A stretch of DNA of 21,139 nucleotides. Source: an uncultured bacterium. GTDB taxonomy: Bacteria; Bdellovibrionota_C; UBA2361; CAKMMH01. A program made the translations under genes and the position numbers. Shown here one piece after another: positions 6,202-13,054 of this stretch. The stretch is from the NCBI GenBank assembly GCA_927798255.1, contig CAKMMH010000007.1:1-21139 (forward strand), in the 5' to 3' direction. Numbering within the stretch: position 1 is the stretch's first letter; each line of letters starts with the position of its first letter. Below the pieces are notes generated by a model. The model saw only the letters and a program-made list of their open reading frames with translations. It was not told the origin of the DNA and ran no database searches.

Positions 6202-6217
6202 AATTAATTATATTTAG

Positions 6218-6245
6218 CAACTTTTATTTTTAATATTTGATATTT
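6218..6245 (+). repeat. 28-bp element, copy A (before radical SAM remnant)
   Basis: This is one of three related 28-bp stretches (6218-6245, 7772-7799, 10352-10379). Each starts with CA and has the core TTAAT(A/T)TT(C/T)GATA. Copy A matches copy B at 22 of 28 positions by eye, and both are preceded by TTTAG. It abuts the deletion junction of the copy-1 radical SAM remnant. It may be a promoter region or a recombination scar. Confidence 0.5.
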
Positions 6246-6635
6246 ATTTTAGGAAAAGGTAGCTTTCAGAAGTCAGTCGGTGGACTTGATCCGCTTTCTG
6301 AGGTATCTTCGAAAGATATTTCTCTTGAGTTATATAGTAAAAACAAAGTTAAGATAAAATATATGGAAGAAATTCCTAATGATTACTATCTTGATTTTGA
6401 AGGAGTGGTAACTCGAGAGGAAGACTTTGGTGCTGTAATACTAGGTAAAAATGGTAGGTCGCTATTTGTAAATGTTGATGGTTACAACTTAGTAGAACAG
6501 TGTGTGCAAAAAGTATTAGTGTCTACTAATGCTCAGGTAATTACTGAAAATAAGGAGTTCTTCTTAAGGCTTCTTAACAGTAATATAGTTTCATTAACCC
6601 CTAATCATAAAGAACAACGTTATGATTGTACTTAA
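6246..6635 (+). pseudogene. remnant of radical SAM/SPASM-RRE enzyme, cassette copy 1
   Basis: The open frame from 6237 (TTG) is the tail of a larger gene. It aligns with cassette copy 2 in two blocks. KGSFQKSV matches KGSFKKAV, which lies mid-gene in copy 2. GGLDPLSEVSSKD then matches DGLDPLCDVLSKD at the end of the SPASM region, so the part between is deleted and the whole CxxxCxxC domain is missing. The last 85 residues are well preserved: EIPND.YLDF, TREEDFGAVILGKNGR, NVDGYNLVEQC, FFLRLLNSNIVSLT. Their shape resembles PqqD/RRE peptide-recognition domains, which bind RiPP leader peptides. No start codon or ribosome site fits. The RRE call is by pattern only. The fragment overlaps the start of the small peptide ORF at 6622. 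Confidence 0.7.
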
Positions 6636-6684
6636 CTCTTGCGTTATTGATGTTTTTGATGATAGCTTTAAAGCTAGTAATTAG
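6622..6684 (+). pseudogene. truncated precursor-like peptide, cassette copy 1
   Basis: The frame ATG...TAG encodes 20 residues, MIVLNSCVIDVFDDSFKASN. It aligns with the start of the intact 74-residue peptide at 11475, which begins MIALDPHVLDIFDDDFNASS. The TAG at 6682-6684 cuts off the region matching the Cys-rich core. Just downstream another frame reads YGCNCYRHICH, then stop, then VCYY, which looks like a decayed Cys-rich core. I infer a precursor gene lost through a nonsense or frameshift event. It overlaps the radical SAM remnant by 14 bases. Confidence 0.6.
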
Positions 6685-6791
6685 AATTTCATAATGCATT
6701 TTACTATGGTTGTAATTGCTACCGGCATATCTGTCACTGAGTTTGCTATTACAATGGTGATGTTAATCGTTCTAACATAAGGAGTGCTAAG

Positions 6792-6878
6792 ATGAAAGAA
6801 AGCAATCCGCAAGTTTTGAGTATTGTTGATCGCGAGATCCTTGTGGGCCGTGATTTTGAATACTTTGAACTTTGCTAA
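6792..6878 (+). CDS. small ORF, possible second peptide of cassette 1
   Basis: A 28-residue ORF starts at ATG 6792, with AAGGAG at 6779-6784 at good spacing. Its product begins MKESNPQVLS and ends GRDFEYFELC before TAA. After the stop the same frame stays open for 15 more codons (RICVDGEPQCNSVTP), adding two Cys. The TAA could therefore be a nonsense mutation in a roughly 44-residue Cys-containing peptide. It lies between the truncated precursor and the cassette terminator. No family is recognised; it may be non-functional. Confidence 0.4.
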   Translation: MKESNPQVLSIVDREILVGRDFEYFELC

Positions 6879-6938
6879 AGAATTTGTGTTGATGGTGAGC
6901 CTCAATGCAATAGTGTTACACCTTAAGAGGCTTAAACC

Positions 6939-6995
6939 GTGAATAAGGTTTTTGTCGTTGTTAAAGGCAGAGTAAATTTTCTAGAAATTTGCTAA
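6939..6995 (+). CDS. very short GTG ORF before cassette-1 terminator
   Basis: An 18-residue ORF starts at GTG, with AAGAGG (6925-6930) eight bases upstream. It ends NFLEIC then stop, echoing the FELC end of the ORF at 6792. It is too short to be sure it is translated; it may be a fragment of a decayed gene. Confidence 0.2.
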   Translation: MNKVFVVVKGRVNFLEIC

Positions 6996-7005
6996 CAGCT
7001 TGCTT

Positions 7006-7039
7006 GAGCAGGGATGATTTTTTGTCCCTGCTCTTTTTT
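7006..7039 (+). terminator. intrinsic terminator just upstream of peptidase 1
   Basis: GAGCAGGGA (7006-7014) pairs perfectly with TCCCTGCTC (7025-7033) around a 10-base loop. Six T follow (7034-7039). The peptidase start at 7053 is only 13 bases beyond, leaving no room for a promoter. The peptidase is therefore probably reached by read-through. The same layout occurs in cassette 2 (11790-11826). Confidence 0.88.
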
Positions 7040-7052
7040 AATGAGAGATAGT

Positions 7053-7679
7053 ATGCTTTATAATATTTTTCCAAATAATGATATAGAACTTAATAAATGT
7101 ATAGAAGAAGCATCTAAAGAATATTCAGGTTTTTTTAATATTCCTAATGATGAATTTAGTGTTTGCGTTTTTTCAATGAAAAAAGAAATATTTGATGAAT
7201 TTAAAAGTATTAAGGAAGATTATGTCGTAGCGTTTGCTTGCCCTCGTTCTAATATTATTTTTATCTGTAATCATGATGATATAAAAAATATATATAACGA
7301 TATCGAATATAAAAAATTAATTAAACATGAAATAGTACATGTATATGCGTATATGTATGTTAATTTTAATAAGTACGTTCCAAATTGGTTGCATGAAGGA
7401 CTAGCAAGATATTTATCAGGACAGATGATAAGTGGCGAAGTTTGTAAAGATTTGGAAACATTATTTAATGATAATATTTTACCAAATGTAATTTATTCAG
7501 GTGGGGGAATCTTTGTAAAACATCTTATAGAAACTTATGGTAATAAAAAATTTTTAGAATTTTTCAATGAGTTAAGAAATCTTAAGAGTAGCAATGAAGT
7601 AAGTATTATATTTATGAAACATTACAATAAAGATATTAAAGAAGTTTTAAATGAAATATTAGGCGAAAATAATAAGTAA
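7053..7679 (+). CDS. cytoplasmic HExxH peptidase (gluzincin-like), cassette copy 1
   Basis: The protein is a putative zinc endopeptidase. From M at 7053 it has about 208 residues. It contains HEIVH at 92-96 and, 19 residues after the second His, the Glu of NWLHEGLARYLSG (115), the HExxH...E arrangement of gluzincins such as the peptidase MA-like group. Zn ligands would be His92, His96 and Glu115, with Glu93 catalytic. The open frame reaches ATG 7014, but that codon lies inside the terminator stem. I prefer 7053, which matches the paralogue's MIFHVSND start; 7041 is another option. There is no signal peptide or membrane segment. In context it may trim the leader of the cassette peptide, which is inference. 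It is the only intact gene of cassette 1. Confidence 0.75.
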   Translation: MLYNIFPNNDIELNKCIEEASKEYSGFFNIPNDEFSVCVFSMKKEIFDEFKSIKEDYVVAFACPRSNIIFICNHDDIKNIYNDIEYKKLIKHEIVHVYAYMYVNFNKYVPNWLHEGLARYLSGQMISGEVCKDLETLFNDNILPNVIYSGGGIFVKHLIETYGNKKFLEFFNELRNLKSSNEVSIIFMKHYNKDIKEVLNEILGENNK

Positions 7680-7771
7680 AATTAAAAAGTCATCAGCCAT
7701 GTAATTTTCTTTATCATTTTTTAATAAAATATCTTTAAATATCAATTTTTGAGAATTTTTATTGATTTTAG

Positions 7772-7799
7772 CAACTTTTAAAATTAATATTCGATACAT
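7772..7799 (+). repeat. 28-bp element, copy B (before racemase-like gene)
   Basis: This is the second copy of the island repeat, ending ATTCGATACAT. It matches copy C at 22 of 28 positions, with the last eight bases identical. It lies 46 bases before the racemase-like start codon. A 6-bp hairpin (TTTCTT/AAGAAA) and an AAAGGAGG ribosome site follow in the leader. A promoter role is inferred from its position. Confidence 0.5.
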
Positions 7800-7845
7800 C
7801 CTATAGAAGATCATATTTCTTGTAAAAGAAAGGAGGTTTTTTGTT

Positions 7846-8697
7846 ATGACTACGTACAGCTTTTATAAAATGAACCCTAGTGGAAACACGACGGTTCTCA
7901 TTAAAAATAAAGATTCAATGGATGCTAGATACCGTGCCTTGATTTCAAATAAGATTCTAGACCCATTGCATCTTGGTGGAGAGCAGGTCGGAGTCGTAAG
8001 TTATCTTGAAGATGGTACTCCAAGACTTGATATGATGGGTGGAGAGTTTTGTGGAAATGCTACAAGAAGTGTCTTGGCGCTTTTACTCTTTGAAGATTCT
8101 AAATCATTAAAGTCTATTGGTGAAAATCATTGGGAATGCCATTTGTCTGTTTCTGGGGTTAATGAAAAAGTTAAAGGTGAATGTTTTAGGGACGGGAGTA
8201 AAATAAATACTAAAGTTTATCTTTCAACTAAAAATCATGTTGAAGAAAAGCTTTTAGATGGCTACAAAGTTTTTGTTGCGTATCTTAGTGGTATTACTCA
8301 CGTTATTTTGAATGAACCACACTTTAAGTTCAGAAAAGATAATTATGTCGAATTCTCAAAACATGTGAGAGATAGCTTGGAATTACAAAATGAAAGTGCA
8401 GTAGGATTAATATTTGTACAAAAAAATGATAATGGGGTTTTTATTAATCCTGTCGTTTGGGTACGAGATACCGATAGTACATATTATGAAACAGCATGCG
8501 GTTCAGGAACCGCAGCATTTGGTATAGTAAGCGCGTTGAATAACAAGAGAGATTTTAAGGAACGGATATATCAACCGTCTAAGAAATCAATCGAGTTAGA
8601 AGTTAGGTTATCTTCTGATGCTTTGTATGTTGAAAGTGTCTCAATTGGAGGCATCGTAGATGTGATAGCTAAAGGAGAATTGTTCTTAGATGATTAG
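7846..8697 (+). CDS. DapF-fold amino acid racemase, CntK/histidine-racemase-like
   Basis: This is a PLP-independent two-cysteine racemase of the diaminopimelate-epimerase fold, 283 residues. It has MNPSGNTTVLI (9-19), EQVG (46-49), GGEFCGNATRS (65-75) with Cys69, and ETACGSGTAA (215-224) with Cys218; these cysteines would be the acid-base pair. The wording NPSGN, EFCGNAT and CGSGTA is closer to my memory of CntK, the histidine racemase of staphylopine synthesis, than to housekeeping DapF. I therefore expect racemisation of histidine or a similar free L-amino acid in the cytoplasm. AAAGGAGG gives a strong start. No metallophore synthase lies in the window, so the pathway is open. Its neighbours are a GNAT and a VanX-like dipeptidase. 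Confidence 0.75.
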   Translation: MTTYSFYKMNPSGNTTVLIKNKDSMDARYRALISNKILDPLHLGGEQVGVVSYLEDGTPRLDMMGGEFCGNATRSVLALLLFEDSKSLKSIGENHWECHLSVSGVNEKVKGECFRDGSKINTKVYLSTKNHVEEKLLDGYKVFVAYLSGITHVILNEPHFKFRKDNYVEFSKHVRDSLELQNESAVGLIFVQKNDNGVFINPVVWVRDTDSTYYETACGSGTAAFGIVSALNNKRDFKERIYQPSKKSIELEVRLSSDALYVESVSIGGIVDVIAKGELFLDD

Positions 8698-8750
8698 AAA
8701 GTTTTAAAGGGAAAAGTGTTCTTTTGATTTTCTAGTCGTTAACTTCCATT

Positions 8751-8771
8751 ATAAAACATATGAGGTTTTAT
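8751..8771. other. small hairpin before the GNAT gene
   Basis: ATAAAAC (8751-8757) pairs perfectly with GTTTTAT (8765-8771) around a 7-base loop. It has no U tract, so it is unlikely to terminate the racemase transcript. It sits 22 bases before the GNAT start and may affect its translation. Confidence 0.25.
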
Positions 8772-8793
8772 CATGAAATGACAAACCAAAAAA

Positions 8794-9366
8794 ATGTCGT
8801 GCTTGGATTGGGAGGCCGTGAAAATCGTCAAGATTTCTGAGGCCATTTTCGGTGATTCGTCATCGCAGTATACCTCCCTGTATGTTCTTTGTTTTGGTGC
8901 GCCACCTTACCAAGAAAAGTTTACTCATGACGATGTCATGAAACTTGCAAAGGAAAAGTGGTTCACCCCTAATTCTTCGATCTTTGCTCTTGTTGATGTG
9001 TCCACTGGGCAAGTTTATAGCTATTTGGTGGCATACAACCTGGAACATGAAGAGAAGGTTTTTAAGGCGATTAAAGATAATATTGATGAGCCTCAAAATT
9101 ATCTTTATGTCGCAGAAATCCTTACTGCTCCCGAGTGGCGTGGTAATGGGTTCGCTGCTTGTCTTGTTAACAAGCTTAAGGAAGAGTATCCCGATACGAA
9201 CATGATCGTTCGTACGACAGAAAAAAATGTCGCATCGAAAAACCTGTTCCTCAAATCTGGATTCTCGTTCCTTGACGGGACGAAAGAATACGTCAGTCAG
9301 CGAAGACTTGGCGATGCTCCCGTAAAAGACAAGCGGATTTTCATGGTTCGGAGGTCTCTTCACTAA
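8794..9366 (+). CDS. GNAT-family N-acetyltransferase
   Basis: The protein would transfer an acetyl group from acetyl-CoA to an amine; the substrate is unknown. It has 190 residues, with the GNAT core at about 105-160. AEILTAPEWRGNGFAACLVNKL includes the acetyl-CoA loop RGNGFA at 116-121. VRTTEKNVASKNLFLKSGF (139-157) is the typical last helix and strand. Base composition and codon use (GCC, GTC, CGT, CTC, ATC) are visibly richer in GC than neighbours, suggesting recent transfer. The start is uncertain. ATG 8794 has no Shine-Dalgarno, and GTG 8818 has GGAGG only two bases away. A terminator follows at 9424-9465. Confidence 0.8.
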   Translation: MSCLDWEAVKIVKISEAIFGDSSSQYTSLYVLCFGAPPYQEKFTHDDVMKLAKEKWFTPNSSIFALVDVSTGQVYSYLVAYNLEHEEKVFKAIKDNIDEPQNYLYVAEILTAPEWRGNGFAACLVNKLKEEYPDTNMIVRTTEKNVASKNLFLKSGFSFLDGTKEYVSQRRLGDAPVKDKRIFMVRRSLH

Positions 9367-9423
9367 GAGATCTTCTCTAAATGTTGTATCTTCTGCTTTA
9401 TTGGTAGAAATCGTGACATATGA

Positions 9424-9465
9424 AAGCCATTAAATTATACTATCCTAGTGGCTTGCATTTTTTTT
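9424..9465 (+). terminator. intrinsic terminator after the GNAT gene
   Basis: AAGCCATTA (9424-9432) pairs with TAGTGGCTT (9446-9454) with one G-U pair. After GCA comes a run of eight T (9458-9465). This separates the GNAT gene from the VanX-like gene, which then needs its own promoter. Confidence 0.75.
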
Positions 9466-9483
9466 ATCTAATTTTTATAAACT

Positions 9484-10206
9484 ATGAATAATAAATTAAA
9501 TATACTGGATTCTGTTTTAAATGATTTTGAAACACTTTGTTTAGTTTCTGAACTAGTAAAAGTTAACATTAAAGAATGTAATCAAGAGCTAATATATTTA
9601 CCAGATGTCCTAAAAAATAATGTTGAATTTAGATTTCCAAAATATTTGTCAAAAAACGATGATAATAATTCTCTTAAAAATACATGTTTTTTCGGCCGTA
9701 AGGAAGTTGCAGAAAAATTAGATGAAATAAGCAAAGAACTACTAAATATAAATAAAGATGCTTCATTAGTGGTTTCAAATGTGTATAGACATCCAAAAAT
9801 ACAGGAAGTGAATTTTAAAAAAGTTTTTGATGATATAAAAGCAAAGTTTCCTTTGTTATCTCAAGATGAACAAATTGAAAAAACTCATCTAATGATTGCT
9901 TATCCAAAAGTTGCGGGGCATACAACAGGCGGGGCTATCGATTTAACTATAAAAATTGGCGACACATTATTAGATATGGGATGTGAAATTGGTGATTTTG
10001 ATAAAGAAGAATATTTACCTGTAAAAAATTCCTATATTACAAAAGAACAATTTGAAAATAGATTGATGCTAAGAAAGCTTATGATTCGTCATGAATTTGC
10101 TCCATTTAATGGAGAGTGGTGGCACTTTAGCTTTGGAGATAGGGAATGGGCTAAAATTTATAATAAAGAGTACGCAATATATGATGTGGTAAATAACATT
10201 GATTGA
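9484..10206 (+). CDS. VanX/DdpX-like D-alanyl-D-alanine dipeptidase (M15D)
   Basis: M15D enzymes hydrolyse D-Ala-D-Ala to D-Ala in the cytoplasm. Some confer glycopeptide resistance (VanX), while others scavenge cell-wall D-Ala. The 240-residue protein has the conserved Arg102 in SNVYRHPK, AGHTTGGAIDLTI with Zn ligands His146 and Asp153, DMGCEIGDFD (164-173), and EWWHFSFGDREW with Glu211 and His214. All expected catalytic positions are present. There is no signal peptide. No vanH or vanA genes are nearby, so resistance is unlikely. Nearness to the racemase-like gene hints at D-amino-acid metabolism, which is inference. ATG 9484 lacks a clear ribosome site. Confidence 0.85.
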   Translation: MNNKLNILDSVLNDFETLCLVSELVKVNIKECNQELIYLPDVLKNNVEFRFPKYLSKNDDNNSLKNTCFFGRKEVAEKLDEISKELLNINKDASLVVSNVYRHPKIQEVNFKKVFDDIKAKFPLLSQDEQIEKTHLMIAYPKVAGHTTGGAIDLTIKIGDTLLDMGCEIGDFDKEEYLPVKNSYITKEQFENRLMLRKLMIRHEFAPFNGEWWHFSFGDREWAKIYNKEYAIYDVVNNID

Positions 10207-10351
10207 CGTAAATCTTTAGTTAGATTTTATCCAAAATGTCACTTGAATTTTTTACAAGTTGTTTCTGTAGAAGATTTTGAATTAAGATGCTATAAACTCC
10301 AAGAGAAAATATTTATAAAAATAAATTTAAAATTTTTTACCAAAATAAAAA

Positions 10352-10379
10352 CATTTTTTTTAATTAATTTTCGATACAT
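10352..10379 (+). repeat. 28-bp element, copy C (before cassette 2)
   Basis: This is the third copy, ending TTTTCGATACAT. It lies in the 10207-10484 gap, about 105 bases before the first possible radical SAM start. The rest of that gap is AT-rich, with short hairpins such as AAATCT/AGATTT near 10213 and no gene that I can support. Confidence 0.5.
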
Positions 10380-10484
10380 ATATTAGAGAGAGTGTGATTT
10401 TAAAGAAATATAAAATTTAGTTTTTTCATTCAGCCCCTTTCTATGCGTAGAAATATTTCTCGCTTATAAATGGTTACAAAAAAT

Positions 10485-11470
10485 ATGAGTAGATGTTTTC
10501 TTATCCTTACCTTTAATTAATAAAAGGGTTAATAAGATATATAAATCATTAAGTGTACCCCTTAGTATTCAATTGGAAGTTACTGGTTTTTGTAATATTA
10601 AATGCAAACATTGTTACAACTTTTGGCGTGGAGATTGGCTTGATAAGGATTATTCAGATAATGTTCACTCAAGTCATATGACTTTAGATACTGCTAATAA
10701 GCTTTTTAGTGAAATCAAAAAGCATAAAATTAAAAGTATCGTGATTACTGGTGGTGAGCCGCTTCTTAATTACAAAATTGTGAAGCACCTTTTGATTCTT
10801 GCAAAAGAAAATCATATTAATATGTCGATGAATTCAAATTTGACATATATTAATGATCAGATTGCAAGAGAACTTAAAGAACTTGGCTTAAGGAGAATCT
10901 TAACATCGTTTATGGTTCATGCGAGGAAGTGTACGAATTGGTAAGCGGTGTGAAAGGTAGTTTCAAAAAGGCAGTTGACGGGATTAAATGTGCATTAAAT
11001 AATGGTTTTGATGTTACATGCAATATGGTAATGACGAAACTTAATGTACATGATATTTTTAATACTGCAAGCTCTTTGTAAATTGTAGGGGAGGGTGTCG
11101 ATATCGGGGAGAGGATAATACAGGATTAATTGATGGTCTTGATCCTCTGTGTGATGTCTTATCAAAAGATTTGGCTTTCGAGTTGTTTAAGGAATATGTG
11201 AAGATAACAATTCAAAAAGAAGAAATTCCTAATGATTGTTTTCTTGATTTTCAAAAGGTAATAACTCGAAAGGAAGATTTCGGAGCGGTAATGCTAAGCG
11301 AAAATGCTGGTTGGCTTTTTTTAGATGTTGACGGATACAAATTAGTTGAAAGTTGCATTGAAAAAAAGTTAGTATCTACTAACGACTTAACTGTTACCCA
11401 ATATAAGAAGTTCTTTTTAAGACTTCTTAATAGTAATGTTGTTTCATTAACCTCTACTAATAAGGAATAG
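10485..11470 (+). pseudogene. broken radical SAM/SPASM enzyme with C-terminal RRE-like domain, cassette copy 2
   Basis: Three pieces in three frames make up one gene. Piece 1 (open from 10489, no good in-frame start; ATG 10485 is in another frame) has SIQLEVTGFCNIKCKHCYNF with the CxxxCxxC [4Fe-4S]-SAM motif, then VITGGEPLLNY. After the TTT at 10909-10911 the protein continues one frame away as YGSCEEVYELVSG...GFDVTCNMVMTKLNVHDIFNTA, ending at TAA 11079. A third frame (from 11063) gives CKLFVNCRGGCRYRG...GLDPLC, a SPASM Cys pattern, then the RRE-like tail EIPND.FLDF...EDFGAVML...DVDGYKLVESC...FFLRLLNSN. Much of the barrel between pieces 2 and 3 is deleted. Such enzymes install thioether or C-C links in peptides. 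A frameshift alone might be a sequencing error, but the deletion is real. Confidence 0.8.
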
Positions 11471-11474
11471 TGCT

Positions 11475-11699
11475 ATGATTGCGCTCGATCCTCATGTGTT
11501 GGACATCTTTGATGATGACTTTAATGCTAGTAGCAAAAGTTTATCTTTTGAGAGTTCCAACCAATGCGTCGATGATGGTTGTGATGTCGAATTTTCCGCT
11601 AACAATCACTCTCAGACGAGTAATTGCGTTTGTCACGGTCTTTGTGAAGAATGTTGTTACGTTTGTCATAAGCCGCCTTGCGACAGTTGCATGGATTAA
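11475..11699 (+). CDS. Cys-rich small peptide, candidate RiPP precursor
   Basis: The 74-residue peptide is intact. An acidic N-terminal region starts MIALDPHVLDIFDDDF and could serve as a leader. Cys31 and Cys36 sit in the middle. The last 24 residues hold eight of the ten Cys (51, 53, 57, 60, 61, 64, 69, 72), with motifs CVCHGLCEECC and CHKPPCDSC. AAGGA at 11462-11466 gives a good start, four bases after the radical SAM/RRE stop. A Cys-rich tail beside a SPASM/RRE enzyme fits a thioether-type precursor. A metal-binding mini-protein is the alternative. A truncated paralogue lies at 6622. The frame at 11479 is a shadow. Confidence 0.7.
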   Translation: MIALDPHVLDIFDDDFNASSKSLSFESSNQCVDDGCDVEFSANNHSQTSNCVCHGLCEECCYVCHKPPCDSCMD

Positions 11700-11789
11700 T
11701 AAGGATAGCTAAAACTAAGTTGTAATCCATTAAGGTTTTGCTTTCTTTCCTTTATGATGGAAGCAGTAGGAGTATGTTATCCTAATAGG

Positions 11790-11826
11790 GCATATGTAAG
11801 AATTTTATTCTTATGTGTGCCTTTTT
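11790..11826 (+). terminator. intrinsic terminator just upstream of peptidase 2
   Basis: A 14-bp stem pairs 11790-11803 with 11807-11820, with three G-U pairs and a TTT loop. A five-T run follows (11822-11826). The peptidase ribosome site (AAGGAG, 11833-11838) and ATG (11850) come immediately after, the same arrangement as in cassette 1. Confidence 0.75.
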
Positions 11827-11849
11827 CTATACAAGGAGATATAATAAGG

Positions 11850-13054
11850 ATGATTTTTCACGTATCTAATGATGTAAATTTAGATGGCATTATAGCCAAA
11901 ATTATCGATGAATATAATGATTTTTTTCGAGTTAAAATAACAGATAATATGATATTTATTCACATATTGGATAAAAACTCATTTTATAGATTGAATAATG
12001 GATTAAGTAATTTTGCTGTAGGGCTAACAGATAATAATAATGTCTATATTTGTAGTTATGAAAGTATAGCAAATGAATATAATGAAAAAGAATACATAAA
12101 CTTTTAAAACATGAAATTGCACATGCGTTTTTAAATTGTTATACAGATTTAAATCATTTTATACCTAAGTGGCTTTGCGAAGGATTATCAGTATATTTAT
12201 CTAATCAAGTTGAAAATTGTAATATATCAATAAATATGTTTAAGCTTTTTGAAAAGAATCCGGATATTAGACTTTATTATGATGGTGCAGGAATATTTAT
12301 TAAATATTTAATTGAACAGTATAGTAAAGATAATTTTCTACAATTTTTAGATTTATTAAGTAAAATAAAATCTCAAAATGAAACTAATAAATGCTGTATT
12401 AAAATTTATGGTAAATCTTTGAGAGATATACTAAAAGAACTTTTGAAAAGTAATGAAGTAATAATAAACGGGAAAAATAATTTAATAAATTCTTTTAAAT
12501 CAGAAGTTTATAAAAGAGTTAATGAATGTAAAGAATTACTAGAAGAGTTTTTTGAGTACGATTTCAGTAATAATAAAGTTTTAATAGAGGGATACTTAGA
12601 GGAACTTTCAGCAAATAACAATTATTCTGAAATGCAATCTTCACTTTATTTGTTTAATCCAAGAAAGAGCTACTATAAATTGGATAATTACTTTAAATAT
12701 GTTACGACATTTGCTACTAAAAATTTAATAATACAATATTTCAAAAATAATAATTTAGTCGATTCTTGGGTAGTACATGGAATCGTTACATACCTAACTG
12801 GCGGATTAACAGGTATGGATTATAACGAAAAAATTTTGAATTTATTGGATAACAGTGCGAGTGTTACTATTAAAAAAAGCGGTGGTGTGTTTTTAATAAA
12901 AGATATAATAGAAAATTATCCAAAGAGAAAGTTGCTAGAGTTTTTTAGAAGTTTAAAAGATGTTAAAACTAAATATGATATAGACGTTAAATTTAATGAA
13001 ATATACAAAAATAATTTAAGTGAAGTGTTAAATGATATGTTAAAGAAAAAATAA
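11850..13054 (+). pseudogene. frameshifted double-domain HExxH peptidase, cassette copy 2
   Basis: The start ATG 11850 has AAGGAG at 11833-11838; the open frame reaches back to 11754 without support. The first frame runs to TAA near 12107, aligning with the N-terminal half of the 7053 peptidase. A shift near 12094-12097 moves to the frame reading KLLKHEIAHAF, so the zinc motif sits just past the break. FIPKWLCEGLSVYLS follows with the third-ligand Glu. From about 12465 a second degenerate copy of the domain follows. FATKNLIIQYF replaces the HExxH segment, SWVVHGIVTYLTGG replaces NWLHEGLARYLSG, and GGVFLIKDIIENY matches GGIFVKHLIETY. The second domain therefore lacks catalytic residues and could be structural or substrate-binding. 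With the shift the protein is probably inactive unless the break is a sequencing error. Confidence 0.72.

Follow-up and report, generated by a model that had tools for sequence, protein, structure and literature searches.

Contig CAKMMH010000007.1 of an uncultured Bdellovibrionota_C bacterium (GenBank assembly GCA_927798255.1) was analyzed over its entire length of 21,139 nucleotides, hereafter the window; within its metagenome-assembled genome (1.77 Mb in 240 contigs, 88.55% complete) this 21-kb contig is numbered C7. Surrounded by housekeeping genes, the window contains two paralogous decayed cassettes, at 6327-7679 and 10534-13054, and in both the order is the tail of a radical S-adenosylmethionine (rSAM) enzyme, a small peptide gene, a hairpin and a protein with an HExxH motif. 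We consider it likely that these are degraded copies of a three-part cassette for a ribosomally synthesized and post-translationally modified peptide (RiPP), whose rSAM enzyme would bind the leader of a precursor and link its cysteine-rich core, and whose HExxH protease would make the cut. A prior sequence-only reading of the window had described the same gene order twice in decayed form, with each copy keeping what the other had lost, and both points hold: the tails are paralogous and DNA repeats are shared between the copies, and the peptidase is whole in copy 1 and the peptide in copy 2. Its further proposal, that enzyme, recognition domain, precursor and protease make up a RiPP-type set, is supported by the recurring adjacency of these genes and by intact sets found elsewhere. 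The first copy consists of the following elements, in which RRE denotes a RiPP recognition element and ORF an open reading frame:

6327..6614, forward strand: C-terminal remnant of the rSAM enzyme with the RRE-like tail, the rest of the enzyme missing (paralogy with copy 2, alignment with intact tails)
6622..6681, forward strand: remnant of a putative precursor gene, paralogue of 11475-11699 (40/60 nucleotides identical)
6792..6926, forward strand: second interrupted putative precursor gene of 44 codons, broken by a single in-frame stop behind codon 28
7006..7033, forward strand: terminator-like hairpin in the interval between peptide and peptidase (z -3.8)
7014..7679, forward strand: intact ORF of an HExxH gluzincin-like peptidase, probable start at 7053 (PF13485)

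The enzyme of copy 1 is reduced to about its last 95 residues, and the first precursor remnant runs into an in-frame stop after 20 codons. The leader of the second interrupted precursor, NPQVLSIV, resembles the SPQILSIV of an intact peptide on contig C26 of the same genome, and its C-terminal cysteines are likewise similar. The second copy is longer, and is made up of:

10534..10914, forward strand: N-terminal piece of the rSAM enzyme with CxxxCxxC (HCYNFWR; PF04055 at e-value 7e-19)
10908..11078, forward strand: middle piece of the enzyme in a different reading frame, with a stop and an internal deletion behind it (comparison with relatives)
11066..11470, forward strand: SPASM end (CKLFVNCRGGC) and RRE-like tail in the third frame (comparison with relatives, AlphaFold2 model)
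11475..11699, forward strand: intact putative precursor peptide gene, 74 residues with 10 cysteines, leader PHVLDIFDD and Cys-rich C-terminus
11754..12107, forward strand: N-terminal piece of the peptidase, ending at a frameshift (match at e-value 3.9e-9)
11787..11823, forward strand: terminator-like hairpin in the interval between peptide and peptidase (z -5.2)
12086..13054, forward strand: remainder of the peptidase in a frame other than that of its start, with an HEIAH domain and then a second domain lacking HExxH

The three pieces of the copy 2 enzyme lie in different frames and residues from about 180 to 310 are missing; inspection by eye found the usual start codon to be absent where relatives begin. 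The peptidase frameshift falls near 12,100. Both hairpins between peptide and peptidase had been noted in the sequence-only reading and were recovered here, and the fold of 11712-11770, a segment without the second hairpin inside it, gave no signal (z -0.4). The region as a whole has 5 terminator-like sites against 2.6 expected, and a promoter scan of it found no excess (42 sites against 40.8 expected).

Since both maturase genes are broken, neither window copy is functional by itself. The two tails (6327-6614 and 11171-11467) share 62% amino acid identity, or 57% in an ungapped comparison over 96 codons, and the DNA repeats between the copies, of 164 nucleotides (76%) and 139 nucleotides (75%), continue into the first part of the peptide gene. 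Substitutions over these 96 codons number 27, 19 and 39 at codon positions 1, 2 and 3, a pattern that points to past selection on the protein; the nonsynonymous rate (dN) is 0.28-0.30, the synonymous rate (dS) 0.77-0.95 and dN/dS about 0.3-0.4. The assembly is fragmented into its 240 contigs, and it could be argued that the lesions are assembly errors and that both copies are functional. However, large stretches are gone from both rSAM genes, which goes beyond single-base changes, other contigs carry different frameshifts of the same peptide, and a similarly shortened rSAM enzyme occurs in a genome of the same class, G037 (L093:7134-7684), so that we regard such errors as an extremely unlikely explanation. 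The frameshifted peptides are P0022 and P0023, database variants on other contigs of the 74-residue peptide, which itself belongs to a 97%-identical cluster (P0021) with 50 member sequences; the existence of these forms suggests decay within the population. The shortened G037 enzyme has kept its N-terminus and RRE-like tail, with an intact type-A peptidase beside it, in the same style of decay as the window. An origin of tail and peptide from unrelated families was rejected, as the alignment of the tail with intact proteins and the intact sets argue against it.

An intact set is present in the same genome: contig C26 encodes, on one strand, a 441-residue rSAM enzyme, a 48-residue peptide ending NCLCLAHPPKCNR and a 254-residue HExxH protein. 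The search for an intact operon in relatives that the sequence-only reading had recommended thus succeeded, with C26 and seven sets in G037, and one outcome it had named as fatal, genes that are never adjacent, is contradicted in the host genome, in G037 and repeatedly elsewhere. At all seven G037 loci a small peptide ORF lies behind the rSAM gene and is followed by an HExxH gene; five of the enzymes are full length, the one on C21 is truncated by the contig end and the one on C45 lacks its N-terminus. Their HExxH genes comprise three M3/PepF-like members and two of an HExxHLGIEE family, both groups assigned by eye, as well as two of type A. In a phylogenetic tree the C26 enzyme groups with the G037 proteins (support 96/92). 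Four of 45 genomes of the class, the host included, match the rSAM profile at an e-value of at most 1e-40, with eight matches in G037. Across the domain, where up to four candidates per genome were scored, only the host and G037 among 382 relatives match at 1e-60, and the family is therefore rare and patchy among them. A further remnant on host contig C10 comprises a 56-residue rSAM N-terminus and two HExxH-like proteins, of which one has the motif and the other lacks it. The tandem HExxH-like proteins at this site (G000:C10:15408-16754, L098), the first lacking the motif, recall copy 2 of the window, and a paired inactive partner is possible. A weak match to the peptide was seen on contig C74 (e-value 0.08).

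Wider spread was surveyed by scanning genome contigs for the exact motif HCYNYWR, which returned 61 stretches, 47 of them relatives; because only this motif was used, the scan misses members such as that of C26, which reads HCYNYWK. Of the 47 records, 17 carry the titles of Patescibacteria groups (Kaiserbacteria, Nomurabacteria, Yonathbacteria, WWE3, Shapirobacteria and others), and the remainder include Caldisericia, Clostridia and Synergistales. A viral collection contained no relative (88 stretches). With C26 added, 48 loci were available, or 49 with the window. A Cys-rich small ORF, with at least 4 cysteines in its last 30 residues, lies directly behind the rSAM gene in 26/48 loci, as against 16/512 control ORFs (Fisher p 6e-21), and 4 of these 16 seem to resemble peptides of further cassettes. 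Two types of HExxH protein, A and B, were recognized, and one or the other lies within 2 kb of the rSAM gene at 30/49 loci, the broken copy of the window included (the union was counted by hand). For type A alone, 22/24 proteins fall within this distance, compared with 155/334 ORFs of that size; the seven type-A seeds had themselves come from cassette neighborhoods, and with them removed the count is 16/17 (p 4e-5).

The immediate surroundings were surveyed for ORFs of 100-700 residues that have a stop and lie within 3.5 kb, at 31 hand-chosen loci of the 47, with type-A proteins and other HExxH ORFs below 310 residues set aside. The commonest Pfam families among the 142 neighboring ORFs are Radical_SAM (8) and NUDIX (5), and two members of Peptidase_M3 occur. 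No ABC transporter is among the best 25 of the 151 Pfam families matched by these ORFs, and an LSGG-type ABC signature is absent within 3.5 kb in the same 31 loci with the 700-residue limit lifted. The lack of an exporter signature suggests that the product leaves the cell by another route or acts inside it. At one Clostridia cassette (L038:2026-4371), a 782-residue ORF with a radical SAM-like start (ITNICNFKCVHCYL) lies right behind the Cys-rich peptide.

The small ORFs beside the maturase combine a conserved leader with a variable core, as would be expected of precursors. A 9-residue leader motif scored 237.4, compared with a mean of 197.3 (standard deviation 6.1, maximum 218.1) for 40 shuffles given the same number of restarts; it exceeded all 40, and did so without close relatives and without the window as well. 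In the first run some rows, for example L015, took another place. At this motif PHVLDIFDD of the window peptide corresponds to PHFLSLWEE in L014, and the type seen in the window's class is P-x-h-L-S-h-h. One could instead hold that the Cys-rich ORFs encode separate metal-binding or regulatory proteins and that the rSAM enzyme modifies something else, given that the core sequences vary greatly and that we infer, rather than observe, modification of the peptides. That the same leader motif is held in common by otherwise different peptides, that such an ORF stands directly behind the enzyme gene in more than half of the loci, and that the enzyme has an RRE-like tail speak against this alternative, which we judge improbable.

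The enzyme has the features of an rSAM/SPASM maturase, namely PF04055, a CxxxCxxC motif and SPASM cysteines. PF04055 was matched by the window piece and by two full-length relatives (L012, L027). The SPASM assignment of the sequence-only reading was borne out in part by profile searches, since of these two PF13186 was above cut-off in L027 and was not listed for L012. In 15 aligned enzymes C258, G271, C276, C311, C314, C320 and C324 are invariant; no conserved cysteine was observed at the last SPASM position. The best matches of the rSAM profile among solved structures are SkfB (6efn, e-value 2.2e-28), PqqE, 8vpo and 5v1q, followed by cytosylglucuronate decarboxylase, sulfatase-maturating enzyme, 5wgg and MoaA. 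None of 10 full rSAM proteins reached the cut-off of an NCBIfam model among the models matched at an e-value of at most 1e-20, and searches of the open-licence literature gave no description of this system; the sequence-only reading, too, had not recognized the combination as a named class.

The same reading had called the tail PqqD-like. In its favor, 3/35 tails match MftB at an e-value of at most 0.001 (best 2.6e-8), rising to 10/35 at an e-value of at most 10. The AlphaFold2 model of the copy 2 tail (11183-11467; predicted local distance difference test, pLDDT, 89.1) has strands followed by helices, a topology that we take to be the PqqD order of these elements.

Several results weigh against the cassette as we have drawn it. 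As many as 22/48 rSAM loci fail the Cys-rich ORF test, and several of the rSAM proteins are truncated or distant; C26, L027, L030 and L032 do have small Cys-containing peptides that fail it. Nineteen of 49 loci, such as L038, L055, L031 and L025, have neither type of HExxH protein within 2 kb, and the type-B seeds, too, had been picked beside rSAM genes. The tail of the window itself matches no RRE model, MftB included, even at an e-value of at most 10, and PF05402 is not among the best 25 of the 35 Pfam families matched by the 35 tails. The weak tail matches include many generic winged helices, the PDB entries matched by the tail profile at weak values (5v1q, e-value 0.32) are presumably also winged helices in many cases, and a comparison of the tail profile with five PqqD proteins was weak (probability 5.7%). 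The tail is best described as a putative RRE domain of the PqqD/MftB kind, supported by the MftB matches and the model. For the assignment of such domains, RRE-Finder requires an HHpred probability of 80% (PMC7470986).

The HExxH proteins of type A have H105, E106, H109, E128 and G129, that is HExxH together with EG, invariant in 22 aligned members. They match PF13485 (Peptidase_MA_2) above its gathering cut-off in the window (e-value 9.7e-8, 32.5 bits against 32.4), in L027 (37.8) and in L033 (35.8), lie below it in L012, L016 and L043, and have no match in L049; with HExxH and a Glu ligand they bear the marks of gluzincins. The copy 1 protein was modeled by AlphaFold2 with a pLDDT of 86.7, and one sequence, P0028, joins its start to another protein (PF01795). 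Among solved structures, those nearest to the type-A profile are for the most part aminopeptidases of the M1 type and leukotriene hydrolases, with a collagenase besides. Type B had no Pfam match in the two members scanned (L019, L024), and any relationship between the two types is distant (profile e-value 5e-5, probability 67%). In the proposed cassette the HExxH protein would be a leader protease.

Two other roles need to be weighed for it. According to PMC12636437, HEXXH proteins of RiPP clusters that were once annotated as peptidases turned out to be hydroxylases; ChlBH, BpmH and PflC are such enzymes, encoded beside or fused to rSAM proteins. By analogy the HExxH protein could be a second modifying enzyme, an alpha-ketoglutarate-dependent hydroxylase. 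However, 0/10 HExxH proteins match the NCBIfam HEXXH-hydroxylase model even at an e-value of at most 1, the type-A profile finds M1-type proteins, and the EG motif is kept, which makes this very improbable; as the principal interpretation it was rejected for want of any match to that model (presumably number TIGR04267) among the 10 proteins. Type B, having no Pfam match, is less secure in this respect. The second possibility is that the protein confers immunity or resistance by destroying the finished peptide. The HExxH family changes between cassettes (A, B and, by eye, two more in G037) against a constant rSAM enzyme, some loci have two HExxH proteins (L018, L027, L032, L033), the HExxH protein is the sole gene left intact in copy 1, and no ABC signature is found nearby. 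A changing family is, however, equally expected of a protease that follows changing leaders, and the window ORF shows no signal peptide by eye; overall we find an immunity function unlikely, and favor a maturation protease.

Taken together, the data show that the genes are adjacent and recur as a set, that each part of the enzymes has sequence support, that the host genome contains an intact set and that the window copies are decayed; we infer a substrate relation between enzyme and peptide, leader binding, thioether chemistry and a proteolytic step. The C-terminal PqqD/MftB-like domain of the rSAM/SPASM enzyme would bind the hydrophobic leader motif of the short precursor, the enzyme would then cross-link the Cys-rich core at the C-terminus by radical chemistry, most likely through Cys thioethers, and the cytoplasmic HExxH protease encoded next door would remove the leader.

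Each part is of a known kind. Mycofactocin comprises the precursor MftA, the RRE protein MftB, the rSAM/SPASM enzyme MftC and the peptidase MftE; its core ends in Val-Tyr and its protease is creatininase-like. The present system resembles it in having a short precursor, an rSAM/SPASM enzyme, an RRE-like domain with MftB matches and a putative dedicated protease, but here the RRE-like tail forms the C-terminal end of the rSAM enzyme itself, the core is Cys-rich and the protease is of the HExxH kind. The MftC model was matched at only 103, 86.6 and 83.4 of the required 265 bits (L012, L038 and L019), and was not listed at an e-value of at most 1e-20 for the other seven of the 10 enzymes. The ranthipeptide systems (PapB, CteB/SCIFF) likewise pair rSAM/SPASM enzymes that recognize a leader with Cys-rich peptides, and PapB (NF047865) is the best NCBIfam model for the Clostridia members L043 and L049 (77 and 85 bits, well short of the cut-off of 340), the latter value being the highest among the 10 proteins. 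In the CteB and SuiB types the RRE-like domain is N-terminal, whereas here it is C-terminal, an HExxH gene adjoins and the thioether linkage is predicted. To the sactipeptide enzymes (SkfB, AlbA, RumMC, StsB) the likeness lies in SkfB as best solved match; no listed model reaches its cut-off, the RRE-like domain is again C-terminal here, and the linkage is predicted.

For the protease, M1 enzymes are named among leader-removing metalloproteases in PMC10885120. Such M1 leader proteases, for example AplP, are also gluzincin-like with HExxH, and M1-type proteins are the nearest solved relatives, but the present ones are single domains of about 210-260 residues near PF13485 and are encoded with an rSAM maturase. 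They differ from the HEXXH hydroxylases in not being fused, in having no model match in 10 proteins and, for type A, in having peptidases as nearest solved relatives.

The interval between the two cassettes contains other genes. A DapF-fold protein at 7846-8697 is nearest to histidine racemases (NF052224, e-value 7e-37, 127 of 400 bits), and an M15 D-Ala-D-Ala dipeptidase-like protein is encoded at 9484-10206 (PF01427, e-value 8e-15), adjoined by a GNAT protein at 8794-9366. A 24-bp motif, TTTTNNAATTAATNTTCGATACAT, is found 5' of the racemase-like gene (7776-7799) and 5' of the copy 2 rSAM gene (10356-10379). With up to 2 mismatches allowed, the genome contains it at these two places only, and the reversed control gave 0; a shorter form within the window was not beyond chance (10/100 shuffles), and a looser form lies at 6214-6242. 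The pair is possibly a shared promoter.

No name for the combination of these parts was found in NCBIfam or in searches of the open-licence literature, and an unlabelled cluster in the radical SAM RiPP atlas that PMC10885120 cites may include this family. The repeated gain and loss of the cassette would fit a fast-evolving weapon or signal. We lean slightly towards an unnamed RiPP group found chiefly in Patescibacteria and a few gut bacteria, in which the rSAM/SPASM enzyme has its own RRE at the C-terminus, the precursor is dense in cysteines, the HExxH protease can be exchanged, no exporter is recognized, and the cassettes multiply and decay within genomes in the manner of a rapidly evolving bacterial weapon or signal. 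The findings point to a peptide-modifying system in Patescibacteria for which searches of the open-licence literature gave no description, and offer a small three-gene unit that lends itself to testing and of which the window's own genome has an intact example. The pairing of a C-terminal RRE-like domain with an HExxH partner that changes family raises the question of how leader recognition and leader removal evolve jointly.

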